From: a virus
Length of the DNA stretch: 22,266 nucleotides
IMG/VR virus record: IMGVR_UViG_3300009177_000416
Location: 1-22,266 of that record
Reading direction: 5' to 3' (one strand)
Made by a program: the position numbers and the translations under genes. The notes beneath the pieces are model-generated. The model did not search any database, was not told where the DNA came from, and saw nothing but the letters and a program-made list of their open reading frames with translations. Shown piece by piece: positions 2,353 to 19,527 of the stretch (its first letter is position 1; each line of letters begins with the position of its first letter).

Positions 2353-4800
2353 ATGGACGCTGAGAAGTTTAAAGAGCTACTTGCTAAAGCAAGAGCTAAG
2401 GCCAGCAACAGAGAGATTGTTGAGGGCGCGGATTCCCTTAATAACCTGATGGAGACAGAGAAAGTAGCTGTTGTAGACACTACTTCCTTAGGGATCGGCG
2501 CATCCACTACAGATGAAGAAGTAGAGGAAGTAATAACTGAGCTTCTGGATACTTCCTCATCTCCAATAGAAGGAAGGAAAATCTTAGGTGTCGCGAGAGA
2601 TGATATTACCCTCAACGAAAAGCAGTCTGCTTTCCTTGATACAGTATTATCAGGAACTGACTGTGTTCTTATTGGAGCGGCAGGAACTGGTAAAACAACT
2701 TCCATGCGCGCTACAACAAGATCTCTCATTTCATCTGGAAGGCTGTCAGCTCTTACTAGAGGCTCAAAATATCTTATCGCAGGAAGACCTGGTGGAGCAA
2801 TTCTCTCCTATACGAGAAAAGCTGTTAATAATATTAGACATGCTGTCGTCGATGAACTCAAGCCTCACACACTCACAATACACAAATTGCTTGAGTTCGC
2901 ACCTATCTTCTATGAAATAGAGGACCCTGATAATAAGGGATTCTTTAAGAAGACTATGAGGTTTGAGCCGACTAGGAATCAGAGTAATCCACTACCTCCA
3001 GACTTAGTATTTCTAGCGTTTGAAGAGTCTTCCATGATAAGTGTGGAGCTATACAAACAGCTACAAGATGCTATGCCACACGCTCATCAGGAAGTGTTTC
3101 TAGGTGATATTCAACAGCTACCACCAATCTTTGGTCTGGCTATCTTAGGTTTCAAGATGGTGGAGTTGCCAGTTATTGAACTCACTGAGGTTTATAGACA
3201 AGCGAGAAATAGTCCTATTATTGACCTTGCATGGAAGATACTTGAAGGTAATCCCAAAATCTTTGATCCGAAGTTGGAGAGTTATAAAGAAGTAGTGAGA
3301 GGAAAGGAAGTTACAAAGTATCGTGCTCCGGCATTAGCGGCGTTTAATAAGAAGAATGAAGATGGAGAAGTGAAGTTCCAGATTTGGCAGAAGAAGTTAA
3401 GTCCTGATAATGGTCTGTTTACCGCAGTTAAGCAGTTCTGTGCATGGGAAGAAAGTGGTTATTATGATCCGGAGAACGATATTATCCTCTGTCCCTTCAA
3501 CAAAGCTTTTGGAACAATAGAGCTTAATAAAGGAATAATGCAGCATCTGGGGAAGAAGCGGGAGGCATTGGTATATGAAGTGATAGCTGGATTTAATAAA
3601 CATTACTTAGCTGTAGGAGATAGGGTTCTCTACGATAAAGAAGACGCCTACATTACTGGGATTAGGAGTAATGGACAGTATCTAGGGAAAAGAGCACAAC
3701 CAGCTTCTACTCAACTAGATCGCTGGGGGCACTTGATTAATGAGATGACAGAACAGGAAAAGTTGCAGGCTAAGATAGAGGACAGTGAGATTGATCTAGC
3801 TGCTATTGAGAACTTCATGGAGAGTAGTGTCCAAGAAGATCGAGTGCAAGCTGCTAGTCATGTAGTCACTATTAAGATGGCATATAGTGATGATGAGGGA
3901 GATGATGAGATAATCTTAGATGGTGCTATGGAGATTAATAACTTACTAGGAGGCTATGCTCTCACTGTCCATAAATATCAGGGTAGTGAGAACGATAGAG
4001 TGTTCTTCGTAACTCACAACTCGCACGCTGTGCTGAACCAGAGGGAAATGCTATATACAGCAGTAACGAGAGCTAAGAAGTTCCTGCATATAATTGCAGA
4101 GAACATCACGTTTGCTAATGGCATAAAGAGCCAGAGAGTGAAAGGAGATACTATAGAAGAGAAAGCTGCTTTCTTCAAGGGTAAGAAGGAGGAAGTGGAG
4201 AAAGCGGAGAGAGAAGGAACATTAGCTCTAGAGTTGCAGCATCATAAGCTGGAAGCGGTAAGAGAAGATGTGGGGCCGCGGACTGTTATCATCGGAGGAA
4301 AGCCAGCTATTAAACTGGAGGATCTTCCTTCTAATGAACTGAAGAATAGAGCTACTATTGCATTACAGCATCATTGGTATAGAGCACAAGAAATTTTTGG
4401 AGATGATATTGGAGAAATTCCAACTCTAAGTTACGACATGCGGCGCACAAATGTAGTAGGTATGGCTTATTTCCAGAGGCATCATATTAAGTTAAATCCA
4501 GTGTGGCTTGCTGCCGGATCTAAGGACTCTGAAGTGCTGGATAAGATGCTTAACCATACTATTCCACATGAAGTGTGTCATCTAGTAGCAGGGAAGAAGT
4601 GGAAAGACTATAAACATGGAGCTTATTGGAAAGTAGCTATGTTGAAGATGGGCTTTAAGACTAGTGGAAGAGATAGTATGCCTGGACTACCAGACTGGGC
4701 AGCTAGTAAGAATGAACTACTGAAGGAGGTGTTTACTGAAGCTGGACTTACTGCACCACTGCCGGAAACTGTAGAAACTGAAGAAGATGGAGTAGAGTAA
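2353..4800 (+). CDS. SF1B (RecD2/Dda-like) helicase fused to SprT-like metalloprotease
   Basis: This is an 815-residue two-domain protein. Residues about 85-600 carry the SF1B helicase motifs in order: Walker A GAAGTGKTT (108-116), motif II FEESS (223-227), motif III GDIQQLPP (251-258), motif IV EVYRQAR (279-285), motif V with 'LTVHKYQGSE' (537-546) and motif VI 'LYTAVTRAKK' (567-576). This is the pattern of 5'-3' helicases such as RecD2 and T4 Dda. Residues about 660-785 resemble a SprT-like zinc protease. The active-site helix is HEVCH (739-743), with H739 and H743 as likely zinc ligands and E740 as catalytic base. The third ligand, H755, sits in KHGAYWK, the usual HGxxWK context. The C-terminal zinc ribbon of many SprT proteins is absent; an acidic tail replaces it. 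SprT/SPRTN proteases degrade proteins crosslinked to DNA. A role in clearing protein roadblocks is therefore inferred. The stop overlaps the next ATG (TAATG). Confidence 0.93.
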   Translation: MDAEKFKELLAKARAKASNREIVEGADSLNNLMETEKVAVVDTTSLGIGASTTDEEVEEVITELLDTSSSPIEGRKILGVARDDITLNEKQSAFLDTVLSGTDCVLIGAAGTGKTTSMRATTRSLISSGRLSALTRGSKYLIAGRPGGAILSYTRKAVNNIRHAVVDELKPHTLTIHKLLEFAPIFYEIEDPDNKGFFKKTMRFEPTRNQSNPLPPDLVFLAFEESSMISVELYKQLQDAMPHAHQEVFLGDIQQLPPIFGLAILGFKMVELPVIELTEVYRQARNSPIIDLAWKILEGNPKIFDPKLESYKEVVRGKEVTKYRAPALAAFNKKNEDGEVKFQIWQKKLSPDNGLFTAVKQFCAWEESGYYDPENDIILCPFNKAFGTIELNKGIMQHLGKKREALVYEVIAGFNKHYLAVGDRVLYDKEDAYITGIRSNGQYLGKRAQPASTQLDRWGHLINEMTEQEKLQAKIEDSEIDLAAIENFMESSVQEDRVQAASHVVTIKMAYSDDEGDDEIILDGAMEINNLLGGYALTVHKYQGSENDRVFFVTHNSHAVLNQREMLYTAVTRAKKFLHIIAENITFANGIKSQRVKGDTIEEKAAFFKGKKEEVEKAEREGTLALELQHHKLEAVREDVGPRTVIIGGKPAIKLEDLPSNELKNRATIALQHHWYRAQEIFGDDIGEIPTLSYDMRRTNVVGMAYFQRHHIKLNPVWLAAGSKDSEVLDKMLNHTIPHEVCHLVAGKKWKDYKHGAYWKVAMLKMGFKTSGRDSMPGLPDWAASKNELLKEVFTEAGLTAPLPETVETEEDGVE

Positions 4801-5039
4801 TGGATAGTCTCATTGTTGCTGCTGTTATTGCAGTGTTTGGTATGGCTACTACTACCCACAGTCCTGTTGTGAAAGCACAAGTTATTGCTCCTGGAATACA
4901 GACTATGCAGCAACAACAACATGAATGGGCTAGACAACAGTATCAACAACAACAGATACAACAGGAGGTTCAGAGACAACTACAGCAACAGGAACAGCAG
5001 AGAGAGTTTAATAACAGTAGCATATTCCGTAAGCAGTAA
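4800..5039 (+). CDS. Small Gln-rich protein with N-terminal hydrophobic segment
   Basis: This encodes 79 residues, and its ATG shares one base with the helicase stop (TAATG), so translation is probably coupled. Residues 4-16 form a short hydrophobic segment (LIVAAVIAVFGMA) followed by 'VVKAQ', which could be a signal peptide cleaved after residue 26 or a membrane anchor. It lacks the usual basic N-terminus; residue 2 is Asp. From residue 34 on, the chain is dominated by glutamine (22 of 79 residues overall) in an amphipathic, coiled-coil-like pattern. I do not recognise it. A membrane or envelope protein in the middle of a replication operon is unexpected. It could tether replication to the membrane or act on the cell envelope, but nothing here decides that. 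Confidence 0.7.
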   Translation: MDSLIVAAVIAVFGMATTTHSPVVKAQVIAPGIQTMQQQQHEWARQQYQQQQIQQEVQRQLQQQEQQREFNNSSIFRKQ

Positions 5040-14282: not shown

Positions 14283-14474
14283 GACTTCTATACTGATTCT
14301 GTAAGAGAAGGCATTTCTAACTTTATTAGTCTCCCAGTAGTCTAGCTTTCTACGAAGTGCTTTCTCAGCTGCTTTCTTATAAGTTAGAAACTCTTTATTG
14401 CTAAGGCTGAGAGACTGCTGTGCTGGCTGAGGCCGGCGGATTAATGGCATAATCAGGTAACTTTGTTCCTCCAA
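14253..14474 (-). CDS. Possible small ORF past the giant virion gene (doubtful)
   Basis: On the - strand a frame opens inside the last 74 bases of the 1708-residue gene, in a different frame, and runs to 14253, overlapping the end of the + strand gene by 30 bases. The first possible start is a TTG at 14474; an ATG at 14450 has GGAGGA too far upstream (16 bases). The encoded 'YKKAAEKALRRKLDYWETNK' and 'ISIEVLIDLLKFG' look protein-like and basic. It could be a real short gene, a frameshift extension of the giant protein, or chance. Confidence 0.3.
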   Translation of the reverse strand: MEEQSYLIMPLIRRPQPAQQSLSLSNKEFLTYKKAAEKALRRKLDYWETNKVRNAFSYRISIEVLIDLLKFGR

Positions 14475-17400
14475 TACTCATCATCATCTGCTGTGCTAAT
14501 GGATGTGCCAAGTGCATAAAGACTTCATTAGCTCTACTAATGTTAGCATCCTTAGTCCAACTGATGATCTCTTTACCAAAGTTAGGCATAAAGCCTCCAC
14601 TCTGAGCATACTCCGCAGCGAAATTAGTAACAGCACTAGCTGGCATTGGGTTATTACCGTAGAGATAAGTCTTAGCGGCACTACCTAATTGTTGCATTCT
14701 AGTCCTATCTTTAGCTTCATATGCTGTGCTTCTGTAGAGAGCATCTAGAGACACAGCTTCATCTAGTGGGCGCGCGCCAGCAATTCTCCTAGTGAAATCG
14801 AGAGCTGTTTGTAGCTCACTCCAGCCTAATGTTCCATCGCTAAAGCCTGGAGTTGTTCTGCTTATGAGATCTCCATTTGCTGTAGTTGTAAATCCTTGCA
14901 TTAGCTGTCCTAGACCTGTCATTGGCCTAGAGAGACCATTGTGTTCCATAGCTAGGAAGATAGATGGAACTATAGCTGCTCCATTTACTACTTTCTGACC
15001 CAGTTGGAAGATAGCTTTACCGAAGTTAATTGCACCGCTAATAGCTGGAAATTCTAGTGGATTTAGTGGTAGAATAGAGACACTACGAGGATTTATGTCA
15101 CCTCTACTGTAGAGTCCAGTATGAGTAATATTAGAGACCGCGCCATACAGCAACCACTCCCCTAGATCTTTATCAGCAGTATTCATAGTAGTGCTATAGA
15201 TATCCTTATGTGCAGGATTCATAGCTAGATTACCAATAAGGTGTTGGTTAATAAGTTGTGCTCCAGGAAGTCCTTGTATTCCAAAGAGACCTCCCTGCAA
15301 TGCCATCATAGTTCCTAGAGTCTTAGCTTCTCCATTCTGGACATAGCGAAACATCTGTTGAAAGAAGTTAAGCTGATAGGTTTGGAAGAGAGACATAGCT
15401 GCACCAATAGGACCTTGGAAAGCTATTGGCCGCTGAGATGCAATATAGTTTCCATGAGTACGGTTAACAAAAGTTATCATGTTGTCAATGAGATCAGAGC
15501 CGCTTACGCCAGCAGCACTGTAGAGCCTAGTAGCCATTCTAGCACTTATAAATCTATTAAAGTCCTCCACATACTGACCGCCAGTAATCTTAGCAGCATA
15601 GCCTAGGACAGTCTTGATTTTAGAGTCTACTGCCTGTTCTGTAGCTCCAGTTCCAATAGGTAGTCCCATATTATCTTGCATCTTAGCAAAGTCATTAAGA
15701 CTCTCTCTAACTACTCCTAGCTGCTTAAGTCCAGGAAGTATAGAGTCTCGTAGTGGTTTATTAAACCAATCTCCTATGGCCTGTGCCATGAGTTTAGTTA
15801 CTGATGGTATCTCTACTGGAGTTCCAGGAACTTTAATAGCCATCTGCTTTAGTGCTGCGGAAGAAGAGAGAGTCTCTGCTACTGTGAGAATAGGAGCACT
15901 CACTAGGTTAATGAGAGATTGGAAACCATCATAGGTAATGGCGGTAGCTGATTGAACAGTATTCATAGTGTTAACAAAGCGAGAGAGAATCCTAGTTGGT
16001 GGTAGTTGATTAGCTATCTCTTGATAGCTCTTAAGAGCATCTACACCTCTAGCCCAAGGATTTCCTAGACCAAATCTCTCTGATATTGCAGAAGCTTGGT
16101 CATAAGAGAGAACTCCTTTCTGCACTCCTATGAAAGCACTTCTAGCCATTCTGAAAGCAGAGTCAGCAGTAGCTTCTAGCTTCTCTTGTCCATCTCTCCA
16201 AAGAGTATAGTTCTCATTGCGGATACCTAAGGCTGTGTTAATGTAGTCGCGATAAGGATTCTCTGCTTGTCTTCCTATCTTACTAGCCCACCAGGAGACT
16301 TGAGATGTAGCAGTGTTCTCATACATCTTACCCATCTGGTCAAGTTCAGAAAAGAGTTGATCATTACCTACTTCTACATAGTTGCGCGCGATCCTAAAAT
16401 TCTGGCGTCTACCATAGTCAATATAGTCTTTGAGAGTCGCCTCTACATTAACGTTCGGGAAGATATCATTAAGGATGCCGCGCCGACGCATCTCTCCATT
16501 AGCTTGACCAGTGTTAAAGTTAAGCTGACTATCGTAGTCACCTTGGATCTTGTGAAAAGTCTTAATATCATCCTTGGTGAAGATATCAAAATCATTTCTC
16601 AGCATAGCCATCTTCTGCTCTAGTCCTTCCTTACTAGCAGCAGTAATTACAGAGATGCCATCATCAGCAAAAGCCTTACCAGCAATAGGCTTAACAAGAG
16701 CAATAAAGGGATACTTATTTGTATCAATAGGTGGCGCATAGAGATTTCCTGGCTCTATCTTTTTAGGTAATCCTTGAGCAGTATAGAGATCATTAACTGC
16801 CTTTAGTCTCCTATCATTAACTTGCTGCCATGCATGTTCAAAATTAGCATGTTCATCATTTAGTTCGTACCAAGTTTTAAGACCCTTAGGTGTAGCTCCA
16901 GGCTCATGGTCAGCTAGAGAAACTCCAGGATAGAAACCCTCAGGTTGATAATCTGGATTCCAACCAGTTATGTTTCCATCCTTGTCCATGACTAGAGAGC
17001 GACGTAGAACAGCTACATTATCTTTATTAACAACAGTTGGCATCTCTTGTTCTACTATCTCTCTTGGTAGCCAAGTCCAGTTTTCATTAGTAGAGTGTCT
17101 AGCAGCTATGAAGCTGTTAAGTTCACTAGTAGCTACTGGATTACTTCTCATAGTAGCAAAGTGAGATGACATTACACCTTCATCTGCATCAATTTGTTTC
17201 TGTATAAAGCGAGTTAGAAATCCTCCTACAGTCTGAACGCGCTGAGCTAATGTTCCCATTGCTGCGTTAGTAAAGGAGAGTATTCCAGGCTTAGGTCCAG
17301 CTATAGTAGCATCCTTAGATGAGTAGCCGTCTATCCATAGATTCTCCCAGCCTTCACCAGCATACTTAGACAGCGCGGCTTTCTTATTATCTCTAATCAT

Positions 17401-19527
17401 TCCTATCTTCTGCTGGACTGCTACCATACCTCTTACTATCTGGCCATCCATACGAGAGGTATTACCAATGTCATAGGAGAGTTGGACATGATTCACTCTA
17501 GCTAAGTCTGGAGTATTAGCCATGAAGTCTTCTGGCTTAGTAGCTTTGAGTCCATTATTGATGTAGTCTTGACTTACATTTGCTCGGCGCGCGACCTCTT
17601 CTATACTCATTTTGGGGTTAGCTAACATTAGATCGTGGATGAAGTCATCTTTAGCGCCTTGGATCTTGGTAAGTAGCTGTTGTGGATTCTGAGATAAGGG
17701 ATCGCCGCTCGCAAAAGTTACTCCCTTCTTCTCTAGCTCCGCTACATGCTTTCCAAAGTCTCCACTCTTAGTAGCTTGATAGAAGAGAGTTTCCAGAGTT
17801 GGGAGATCAGAGTCTACTATAGTATCCTTAGCTCTAATTCCTCTATCAGCAGTCCAGAGATATCTAGCCATTGCATCTTCAGTTTCTGTAGTAGTAGTTA
17901 GCACACTACCAGTAGTTTGTGGTGAGAACTCTCTCCTTCCATATGTGACGCCGCGATTAATTACTTTAACTTCTCCGGGGTAATCTCCCAGCACTCTAAC
18001 AACATTAGTTACCACATTTCCATTGAGGACATTAAGGACTGTTGGAGCAGAATATAAGGGAGCCGCGTCCTTCGGCAACATACCAGTTTCTTTAAGACTC
18101 TTATACTCCGCCGGCTTTAGTGGTCTTCCCATTCCCTCTAGAGGAACTTCTACTAGATTAGGAGCATTAGGATTAACGTAGATCTGTCCTTTCTCAGCTA
18201 GAAAGATATCTTTACCACCTTCCCAAGCTTCTTCAGCAGTTCTAAATCTAGGCATCTCCAGACCATCTGGAGTAGTGAAAGTCTCATACCACTTCCCTAT
18301 TTCTGCTCCATTACTATAAGGTCTCATCTGGTATCGTTTAGAAAGATCAGCTCCATCATGAGCTACATTACTGAAAACTTCTGTAAGTGGAGCTGGAGAT
18401 AGCTGATTACCTTTATGGAATTTGTTGACGAAGAAGTAGTCAGCTGCTGGAGCTACATCTGCATCTCCTACAGGTCTGATACCTACTAGAGTTCCCATCT
18501 TATTAAGAGCATCTTCTTTACTCATGCTTGCATCTGCATACATTCTCCTAATCATACTAACAAAAGAGTCAGCGAATTTCTCATTATTAGTTCCGCTTAG
18601 CTCTCGCGCAGTTACAGTAATCTCATTAAGAGCTCTGTTAGTAGAAGTAGAGAGCTTTCTTCCAGCTAATGTAGATAGTTCCTCTTTAGGTAAGCTCCAC
18701 ATATGATCAAACATAGCAGCCATCTTAGCACCAGCTAGAGGCACATCTTCTAGTGTAGAGCCATCATCTTTGAAGATAGTTCTAACTGTTTCATAGTCCT
18801 TAGTAGCCTTATCCGCTGCTAGATAAGCCTGCTGGAACTTACTCCTAATAGCGTAGGCTTCTAGTCCACCTCCTACTACTGTTCCAAAGCCTATTCCAAT
18901 AGCCATATCAGATAGCATATCTCCCCAACTCTGATCTTTCATAAGTGGAGAGCCTTGCATAGCTGCTGCTGCGGCAGTCTCAAAAGCTAATGACTGCACT
19001 GCTTGATCTCGGAAACCTAGAGAGATAGCCTTGAATTTATCTGCTGCGAGACCTGGAAATAGAGCTTGGTCTCCACTTAATATTGTAGCTTCCGCACCCT
19101 TTACAATCTTATCAGTTGCAGGCATTAGTAAATTAGTAGCTCTTGCAGCAGTCTCTCCTAAGAAGCCTCCCTGAATAGCTTTCATAGCCTTAACGCCATA
19201 AAGTCCAGGAACTAGAGAGCCAGCAATAAAGCCAGCTGCTTCAACTCCCTGAGTATGCTCTTTGTAATAACTATCATAACTATCAAGGCCAAGAGATTGT
19301 AGTTCATTACTCATCTTAAGAGGCTCTATGTCCGCGCCGAACATATTAGCAAGCTGTATAGGAGTGTTAATAACACCGTTTATGGCGGCACCAATAGAAA
19401 GAGGAACAAATTTAGTAACTACATCTATAGCACTATCTACTGCACCCTGTCCTCCAAGAGTTGATGGAACATTAGTGGCATGAACTAAATCAGAAATGTC
19501 TCCAGTTTCAGTATCATAAAGTCCCAT
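14401..19527 (-). CDS. Giant internal virion / ejection-type protein (1708 aa)
   Basis: This single frame of 1708 codons shares a TAATG overlap with the upstream gene. Hydrophobic, Gly/Ala-rich segments that could insert into a membrane lie near the N-terminus ('AAGFIAGSLVPGLYGV', 'IGIGFGTVVGGGLEAYAI') and near the C-terminus ('MMALQGGLFGIQGLPG', 'AAIVPSIFLAM'). The long middle is soluble and mixed. A C-terminal part with 'RTHGNYIASQRPIAFQGP' followed by 'AAMSLFQTYQLNFFQQMF' resembles the end of very large structural proteins of podovirus-type phages. Length, paired hydrophobic regions and the two partner genes fit an ejection protein released into the cell with the genome, like T7 gp16 in role though not clearly in sequence. 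I found no lytic transglycosylase motif and no RNA polymerase motif. The role is inferred. Confidence 0.7.
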   Translation of the reverse strand: MGLYDTETGDISDLVHATNVPSTLGGQGAVDSAIDVVTKFVPLSIGAAINGVINTPIQLANMFGADIEPLKMSNELQSLGLDSYDSYYKEHTQGVEAAGFIAGSLVPGLYGVKAMKAIQGGFLGETAARATNLLMPATDKIVKGAEATILSGDQALFPGLAADKFKAISLGFRDQAVQSLAFETAAAAAMQGSPLMKDQSWGDMLSDMAIGIGFGTVVGGGLEAYAIRSKFQQAYLAADKATKDYETVRTIFKDDGSTLEDVPLAGAKMAAMFDHMWSLPKEELSTLAGRKLSTSTNRALNEITVTARELSGTNNEKFADSFVSMIRRMYADASMSKEDALNKMGTLVGIRPVGDADVAPAADYFFVNKFHKGNQLSPAPLTEVFSNVAHDGADLSKRYQMRPYSNGAEIGKWYETFTTPDGLEMPRFRTAEEAWEGGKDIFLAEKGQIYVNPNAPNLVEVPLEGMGRPLKPAEYKSLKETGMLPKDAAPLYSAPTVLNVLNGNVVTNVVRVLGDYPGEVKVINRGVTYGRREFSPQTTGSVLTTTTETEDAMARYLWTADRGIRAKDTIVDSDLPTLETLFYQATKSGDFGKHVAELEKKGVTFASGDPLSQNPQQLLTKIQGAKDDFIHDLMLANPKMSIEEVARRANVSQDYINNGLKATKPEDFMANTPDLARVNHVQLSYDIGNTSRMDGQIVRGMVAVQQKIGMIRDNKKAALSKYAGEGWENLWIDGYSSKDATIAGPKPGILSFTNAAMGTLAQRVQTVGGFLTRFIQKQIDADEGVMSSHFATMRSNPVATSELNSFIAARHSTNENWTWLPREIVEQEMPTVVNKDNVAVLRRSLVMDKDGNITGWNPDYQPEGFYPGVSLADHEPGATPKGLKTWYELNDEHANFEHAWQQVNDRRLKAVNDLYTAQGLPKKIEPGNLYAPPIDTNKYPFIALVKPIAGKAFADDGISVITAASKEGLEQKMAMLRNDFDIFTKDDIKTFHKIQGDYDSQLNFNTGQANGEMRRRGILNDIFPNVNVEATLKDYIDYGRRQNFRIARNYVEVGNDQLFSELDQMGKMYENTATSQVSWWASKIGRQAENPYRDYINTALGIRNENYTLWRDGQEKLEATADSAFRMARSAFIGVQKGVLSYDQASAISERFGLGNPWARGVDALKSYQEIANQLPPTRILSRFVNTMNTVQSATAITYDGFQSLINLVSAPILTVAETLSSSAALKQMAIKVPGTPVEIPSVTKLMAQAIGDWFNKPLRDSILPGLKQLGVVRESLNDFAKMQDNMGLPIGTGATEQAVDSKIKTVLGYAAKITGGQYVEDFNRFISARMATRLYSAAGVSGSDLIDNMITFVNRTHGNYIASQRPIAFQGPIGAAMSLFQTYQLNFFQQMFRYVQNGEAKTLGTMMALQGGLFGIQGLPGAQLINQHLIGNLAMNPAHKDIYSTTMNTADKDLGEWLLYGAVSNITHTGLYSRGDINPRSVSILPLNPLEFPAISGAINFGKAIFQLGQKVVNGAAIVPSIFLAMEHNGLSRPMTGLGQLMQGFTTTANGDLISRTTPGFSDGTLGWSELQTALDFTRRIAGARPLDEAVSLDALYRSTAYEAKDRTRMQQLGSAAKTYLYGNNPMPASAVTNFAAEYAQSGGFMPNFGKEIISWTKDANISRANEVFMHLAHPLAQQMMMSIGGTKLPDYAINPPASASTAVSQP

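Follow-up and report, generated by a model that had tools for sequence, protein, structure and literature searches.

The stretch of DNA analysed here (the window) comprises 22,266 bases and constitutes the whole virus record. An open reading frame on its plus strand, extending from an ATG at 2353 to a stop codon at 4798-4800 with no internal stops, encodes an 815 aa protein in which three Pfam domains score over their curated cut-offs: AAA_19 (E 4.7e-17) and UvrD_C_2 (E 1.5e-13), placing the helicase domains at residues 96-302 and 534-581, and SprT-like (E 3.4e-9) at residues 688-768. The features of this frame, with the evidence for each, are as follows.

2353..4800, + strand: helicase-SprT fusion gene, 815 aa, stop included (ORF, Pfam; full length kept in the related contig L002)
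2353..2601, + strand: N-terminal helical extension, fast-evolving, residues 1-83 (identity to L002, pLDDT)
2602..4185, + strand: SF1B helicase core, RecD2/Dda-like, residues 84-611 (Pfam, PHROGs, structure match, motifs)
4186..4317, + strand: helix and low-confidence linker joining helicase to protease, residues 612-655 (pLDDT)
4318..4662, + strand: SprT-like zinc metalloprotease domain, residues 656-770 (Pfam, alignment, profile, AlphaFold2, Foldseek)
4567..4581, + strand: HEVCH, residues 739-743, with predicted zinc ligands H739 and H743 and catalytic E740 (H, E and H invariant in 24 SprT rows)
4615..4617, + strand: H755, predicted third zinc ligand (invariant; aligns with the SPRTN GH histidine)
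4663..4797, + strand: C-terminal tail, residues 771-815, variable, with an acidic end and no zinc ribbon (Pfam, alignment, pLDDT)

An earlier sequence-only reading of this locus had proposed that one chain joins a helicase to a SprT-like metalloprotease domain, citing GAAGTGKTT (residues 108-116), LYTAVTRAKK (567-576), HEVCH (739-743) and H755 within KHGAYWK. All of these residues lie where that reading placed them, and the proposed architecture is confirmed by Pfam matches for both domains, by a SprT profile that reaches human SPRTN, and by fold models: the two domains occur in a single chain, with their catalytic residues conserved. The full-length predicted model (pLDDT 82.5, pTM 0.64) has low pLDDT at residues 36-40 and 66-78 of the N-terminal extension, which is 45% identical to its L002 counterpart versus 79% in the helicase. 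Within the linker pLDDT falls below 50 at residues 625-642 and 646-648, delimiting a low-confidence stretch at 625-648.

Conservation of the fusion in related phages

The same fusion is present in a near-identical contig (L001), and the L002 protein is 69% identical over the whole chain, with the two domains and the motif intact. When the search was widened using alignments of the helicase and of SprT, the number of distinct fused proteins rose to ten, carried by separate IMG/VR contigs of uncultivated phages and falling into three groups: group I (the window and L002), group II (L009, L010 and L109) and group III (L014, L015, L171, L183 and L187). Helicase motifs I-VI and the HExxH...H...W pattern are kept in all ten. 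Estimates of dN/dS are 0.07-0.19 for the SprT part and 0.05-0.08 for the helicase, ratios that are rough because dS nears saturation in the more distant pairs and, for the helicase, is far from saturation only between L009 and L010. The SprT part of the fusion is thus under purifying selection. Fused proteins on independent contigs exclude a chimeric contig, and the reading of the fusion as an assembly artefact or a chance motif, to which we assign a negligible probability, is ruled out by ten distinct contigs in three groups, Pfam scores above cut-off wherever scanned, and purifying selection.

Most other helicases of this family end about 56 residues past motif VI. In the sister helicases nearest to groups I and II (L008, L011, L012, L162, L163 and L166) the tails are of low complexity and lack the SprT motif, and no SprT remnants were seen in them. 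Since the closest helicase relatives (L008, L162, L163 and L166) have no SprT tail, the protease is accessory to the helicase and not essential. Separately, a related helicase frame in L013 (5989-8400) is interrupted by one in-frame stop, located between 7347 and 7351, which may be genuine or an error.

The helicase core

PHROGs assigns the helicase to the Dda-like family (PHROG 325, E 1.7e-50). Motifs I (residues 108-116), II (223-228), III (248-258), IV (276-283), V (535-546) and VI (564-576) occur in order within a RecA-like fold, as in SF1B helicases of the RecD2/Dda type, and the helicase model is closest to RecD2 (3gp8, E 8e-22) and Dda (3upu, E 5e-16). The complete SF1B motif set claimed by the earlier reading is therefore present, with the qualification that motif II reads FEESSM, having EE instead of the usual DE. 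This Walker B variant is found in groups I and II, and IDE in group III and in L129, a contig described below; EE is a conservative change common to close relatives. By analogy with the family, the helicase is expected to move 5'-3' with ATP hydrolysis.

The SprT-like domain

The match to Pfam SprT-like (PF10263) scores 37 bits against a gathering cut-off of 25.6, and the cut-off is also reached by L009, L109, L014, L187, L171 and L183. In an alignment of 24 SprT domains, 7 of them from fused proteins and the remaining 17 from further phage frames (among them L129), H739, E740, H743, H755, W759, T736 and G703 are invariant. Compared with solved structures, the profile built from this alignment detected human SPRTN (6mdx, E 1.8e-5; 6mdw, E 6.3e-5) as the sole family found with confidence, with the HExxH motif and the GH histidine aligned between the two.

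AlphaFold2 modelled residues 645-815 with a pLDDT of 85 and a pTM of 0.81. The top Foldseek match of this model among viral models is a 'Protein SprT' of an uncultured phage (E 1.1e-4, TM 0.80 on the target, rmsd 2.2); behind it come numerous SprT-like phage proteins, all with probability 1.0. The viral match at rank 32 is A0A6J5R4H4, a 1143-aa 'AAA domain containing protein' from an uncultured phage that may be another AAA-SprT protein. Among solved structures, the best ten Foldseek matches are minigluzincins (jannalysin, abylysin, selecase); these are weak (best, jannalysin, E 0.086), none falls below E 0.001, and SPRTN is reached by the sequence profile only. The relationship of residues 640-815 to SprT and zinc proteases that the earlier reading predicted was thus found, through the SPRTN profile, the phage SprT models and the weak minigluzincin matches. 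No Pfam match to a SPRTN/Wss1-type zinc subdomain or to a SprT zinc ribbon was obtained, and the tail has no Cys cluster.

A zincin-type fold class for this domain is well supported by the models, and its conserved residues suggest that it would bind zinc and act as a protease. Some zincin-like domains of mobile elements work without catalysis, as in ArdC (PMC7213743), and the SprT domain could by that precedent be a non-catalytic DNA- or protein-binding attachment. We consider this very improbable, given that the ten fused proteins, and likewise the SprT proteins that phages encode separately, have HExxH, the third His and W without exception.

Origin of the helicase-SprT pairing

Of the 87 records that carry this helicase, seven encode the fused protein, six encode a SprT-like protein above the Pfam cut-off from a separate gene, and in one (L129) SprT comes immediately after the helicase; most relatives of the fusion's helicase have no SprT. 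Where the fetched flank includes this separate gene, it lies some 1.5-4 kb upstream of the helicase and shares its strand. That every fusion descends from one event, with no later loss or transfer, is rejected by the helicase tree (AU p 1.8e-9; second tree, 2.4e-6), which does not reject groups I and II as one clade (p 0.14). Because the fused proteins do not form one helicase clade, the pairing has arisen, disappeared or been transferred repeatedly; the trees do not discriminate between gain and loss. In the SprT-domain tree the window's protease joins group III (support 93/72) and not group II, whereas its helicase is nearer to group II. This conflict has weak support but agrees with repeated acquisition or exchange of the protease module. 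Related phages appear to have put helicase and SprT together on more than one occasion.

In L129 the helicase ends ...CCA AAA AAG TAG and the SprT domain runs on directly in the -1 frame (3743-4219), its homology starting upstream of the first start codon. An A_AAA_AAG heptamer (3740-3749) stands right before the helicase stop, and A AAA AAG, read in frame, is well known in bacteria as a slippery site. The heptamer is a candidate programmed frameshift site, which would yield both the helicase alone and a helicase-SprT protein. The RNA 3' of it folds just marginally better than shuffled sequences do (z -1.6). A search for a second copy of this arrangement found none, the site being known from one contig, and a one-base indel in the run of A would look the same.

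A possible production of helicase without protease in L129 is among the points in favour of a timing switch, whereby the protease would act on its own chain or on phage proteins, for instance by cutting the linker to free the helicase or by trimming replication proteins. SPRTN and Wss1 self-cleave, and the linker of the fusion is predicted to be flexible; however, no conserved segment resembling a cleavage site was seen in the linker and most relatives need no such switch, making this reading an improbable one in our judgement. We advance with considerable reserve a broader proposal: that phages independently assembled, at least twice, a one-chain ATP-driven translocating protease that would digest roadblocks on DNA, with L129 adding the protease to part of its helicase molecules by -1 frameshifting.

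Genomic context

Genes near the fusion encode a PD-(D/E)XK exonuclease, a Sak4-like annealing protein, a family A DNA polymerase and a DUF3987 primase-type protein, which places the fusion gene within a replication/recombination block. Immediately downstream, a 79-aa Gln-rich ORF with a hydrophobic start (4800-5039) has an ATG that overlaps the stop codon of the fusion gene, so that its translation may be coupled to that of the fusion. Two otherwise unlike small proteins per phage (at 6543 and 7280 in the window, 4241 and 5134 in L002, and 10561 and 11209 in L109) share a C-terminal motif, LEDLM, LDDLM or LEDL, a possible docking peptide through which both would bind one replication partner. 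On the strand opposite to the replication genes, the window also encodes a 1708-aa protein (14401-19527, minus strand) matching mainly PHROG 16165, of unknown function.

Proposed function of the fusion

We favour, by a modest balance of probability, the interpretation that the fusion is a single-chain roadblock remover, in which the motor runs into a DNA-bound or crosslinked protein and the tethered protease cuts it. The SF1B motor would engage phage DNA where it is single-stranded, close to a replication fork or a recombination intermediate, and travel 5' to 3', driven by ATP hydrolysis. On meeting a tightly bound or crosslinked protein, it would strip or partly unfold that protein and hand it to the SprT protease on the flexible linker, which would trim the block until what is left no longer stops the replisome. 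DNA targeting would then fall to the motor, a task for which SPRTN has zinc-binding and basic DNA-binding parts that are lacking in the phage domain.

Counted in support of this interpretation are the scores of both domains above Pfam cut-offs, the SPRTN profile match, the SprT fold model and the RecD2/Dda-like helicase, together with the retention of motifs in all ten fused proteins, the low dN/dS, the replication/recombination neighbours and the occurrence of SprT as a separate gene in other phages of the same helicase family, in L129 right behind the helicase. Weighing against it are the lack of a Foldseek match below E 0.001 among solved structures and the missing SprT tail in the closest helicase relatives. 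A cellular parallel exists in FANCJ, a helicase that gets onto ssDNA, moves along it into the crosslinked protein and, by unfolding that protein, makes it cleavable by SPRTN (PMC12279946); the FANCJ-SPRTN pair also bears out the earlier reading's premise that cellular SprT proteases rely on a separate helicase (PMC12279946). By analogy with it, the motor and protease of the fusion would be coupled and blocking proteins would be their substrates, although the fusion could instead serve only to recruit the two active sites together, with no mechanical link between them. The substrates that the earlier reading suggested, among them a DNA-protein crosslink, a repressor, a defence protein or a polymerase, are not told apart by the sequence.

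The main rival to roadblock removal is a role in counter-defence or takeover, with the helicase bringing the protease to DNA to cut one host DNA-bound protein (a defence enzyme, repressor, RNA polymerase or recombination factor) and not crosslinks generally. The patchy spread of the fusion, its absence in close relatives and C-terminal swapping would fit an arms race, and similar patchiness led to the argument that SprT-like proteins of jumbo phages cut different host proteins (PMC7824862). Plasmid ArdC likewise combines ssDNA binding and a related metalloprotease with antirestriction activity, but that activity did not need the protease (PMC7213743). The replication/recombination cluster and the fusion to a translocase, not to a binding domain, favour the general roadblock role, and we regard counter-defence as a distinctly less probable reading.

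Relation to known systems

Like SPRTN, Wss1 and bacterial SprT (PF10263), the phage domain has HExxH and a third His, a GxA strand and then W, and its profile matches 6mdx and 6mdw; it differs from them in having a core of about 115 aa, attached to a helicase, without a zinc ribbon or zinc-binding subdomain. By its domains, the phage protein would resemble the FANCJ-SPRTN pathway, in which a translocase on ssDNA unfolds the adduct and a SprT protease cuts it (PMC12279946); there, two separate proteins are involved and FANCJ is an SF2 helicase of the XPD family, whereas the phage protein is one chain with an SF1B motor. T4 Dda (about 440 aa) and RecD2 have the same helicase core and motifs as the fusion but no protease domain. 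The closest helicases of named phages (Polaromonas phage Tiera, Aeromonas phage P5, EBPR podovirus 3 and Pseudomonas phage PaMx41; 34-40% identity over residues 80-601) are likewise Dda-like and without a SprT tail, and Tiera has a separate SprT-like gene upstream of its helicase. ArdC of plasmid R388 also joins a DNA-binding part to a Spartan-like metalloprotease, but it has no motor, uses Glu as third metal ligand, and its protease is dispensable for its known function (PMC7213743).

Both domains were already known; their union was not found in limited searches covering named phages and plasmids (no match covering 80% of the query), 22 cellular helicase relatives, 120 genomes of one bacterial phylum (no SprT-like match above cut-off within an ORF of more than 500 aa) and a literature search beyond whose reach many journals lay.

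In animals, the repair of a crosslink can depend on two proteins, a helicase that unfolds the obstacle and a SprT protease that cuts it. With both activities naturally in one chain, a single purified protein and two point mutants would suffice to study how they are coupled, and the protein might also become a tool to digest crosslinked proteins. For the phages themselves, the fusion would offer a molecular handle on how protein roadblocks are cleared during replication.
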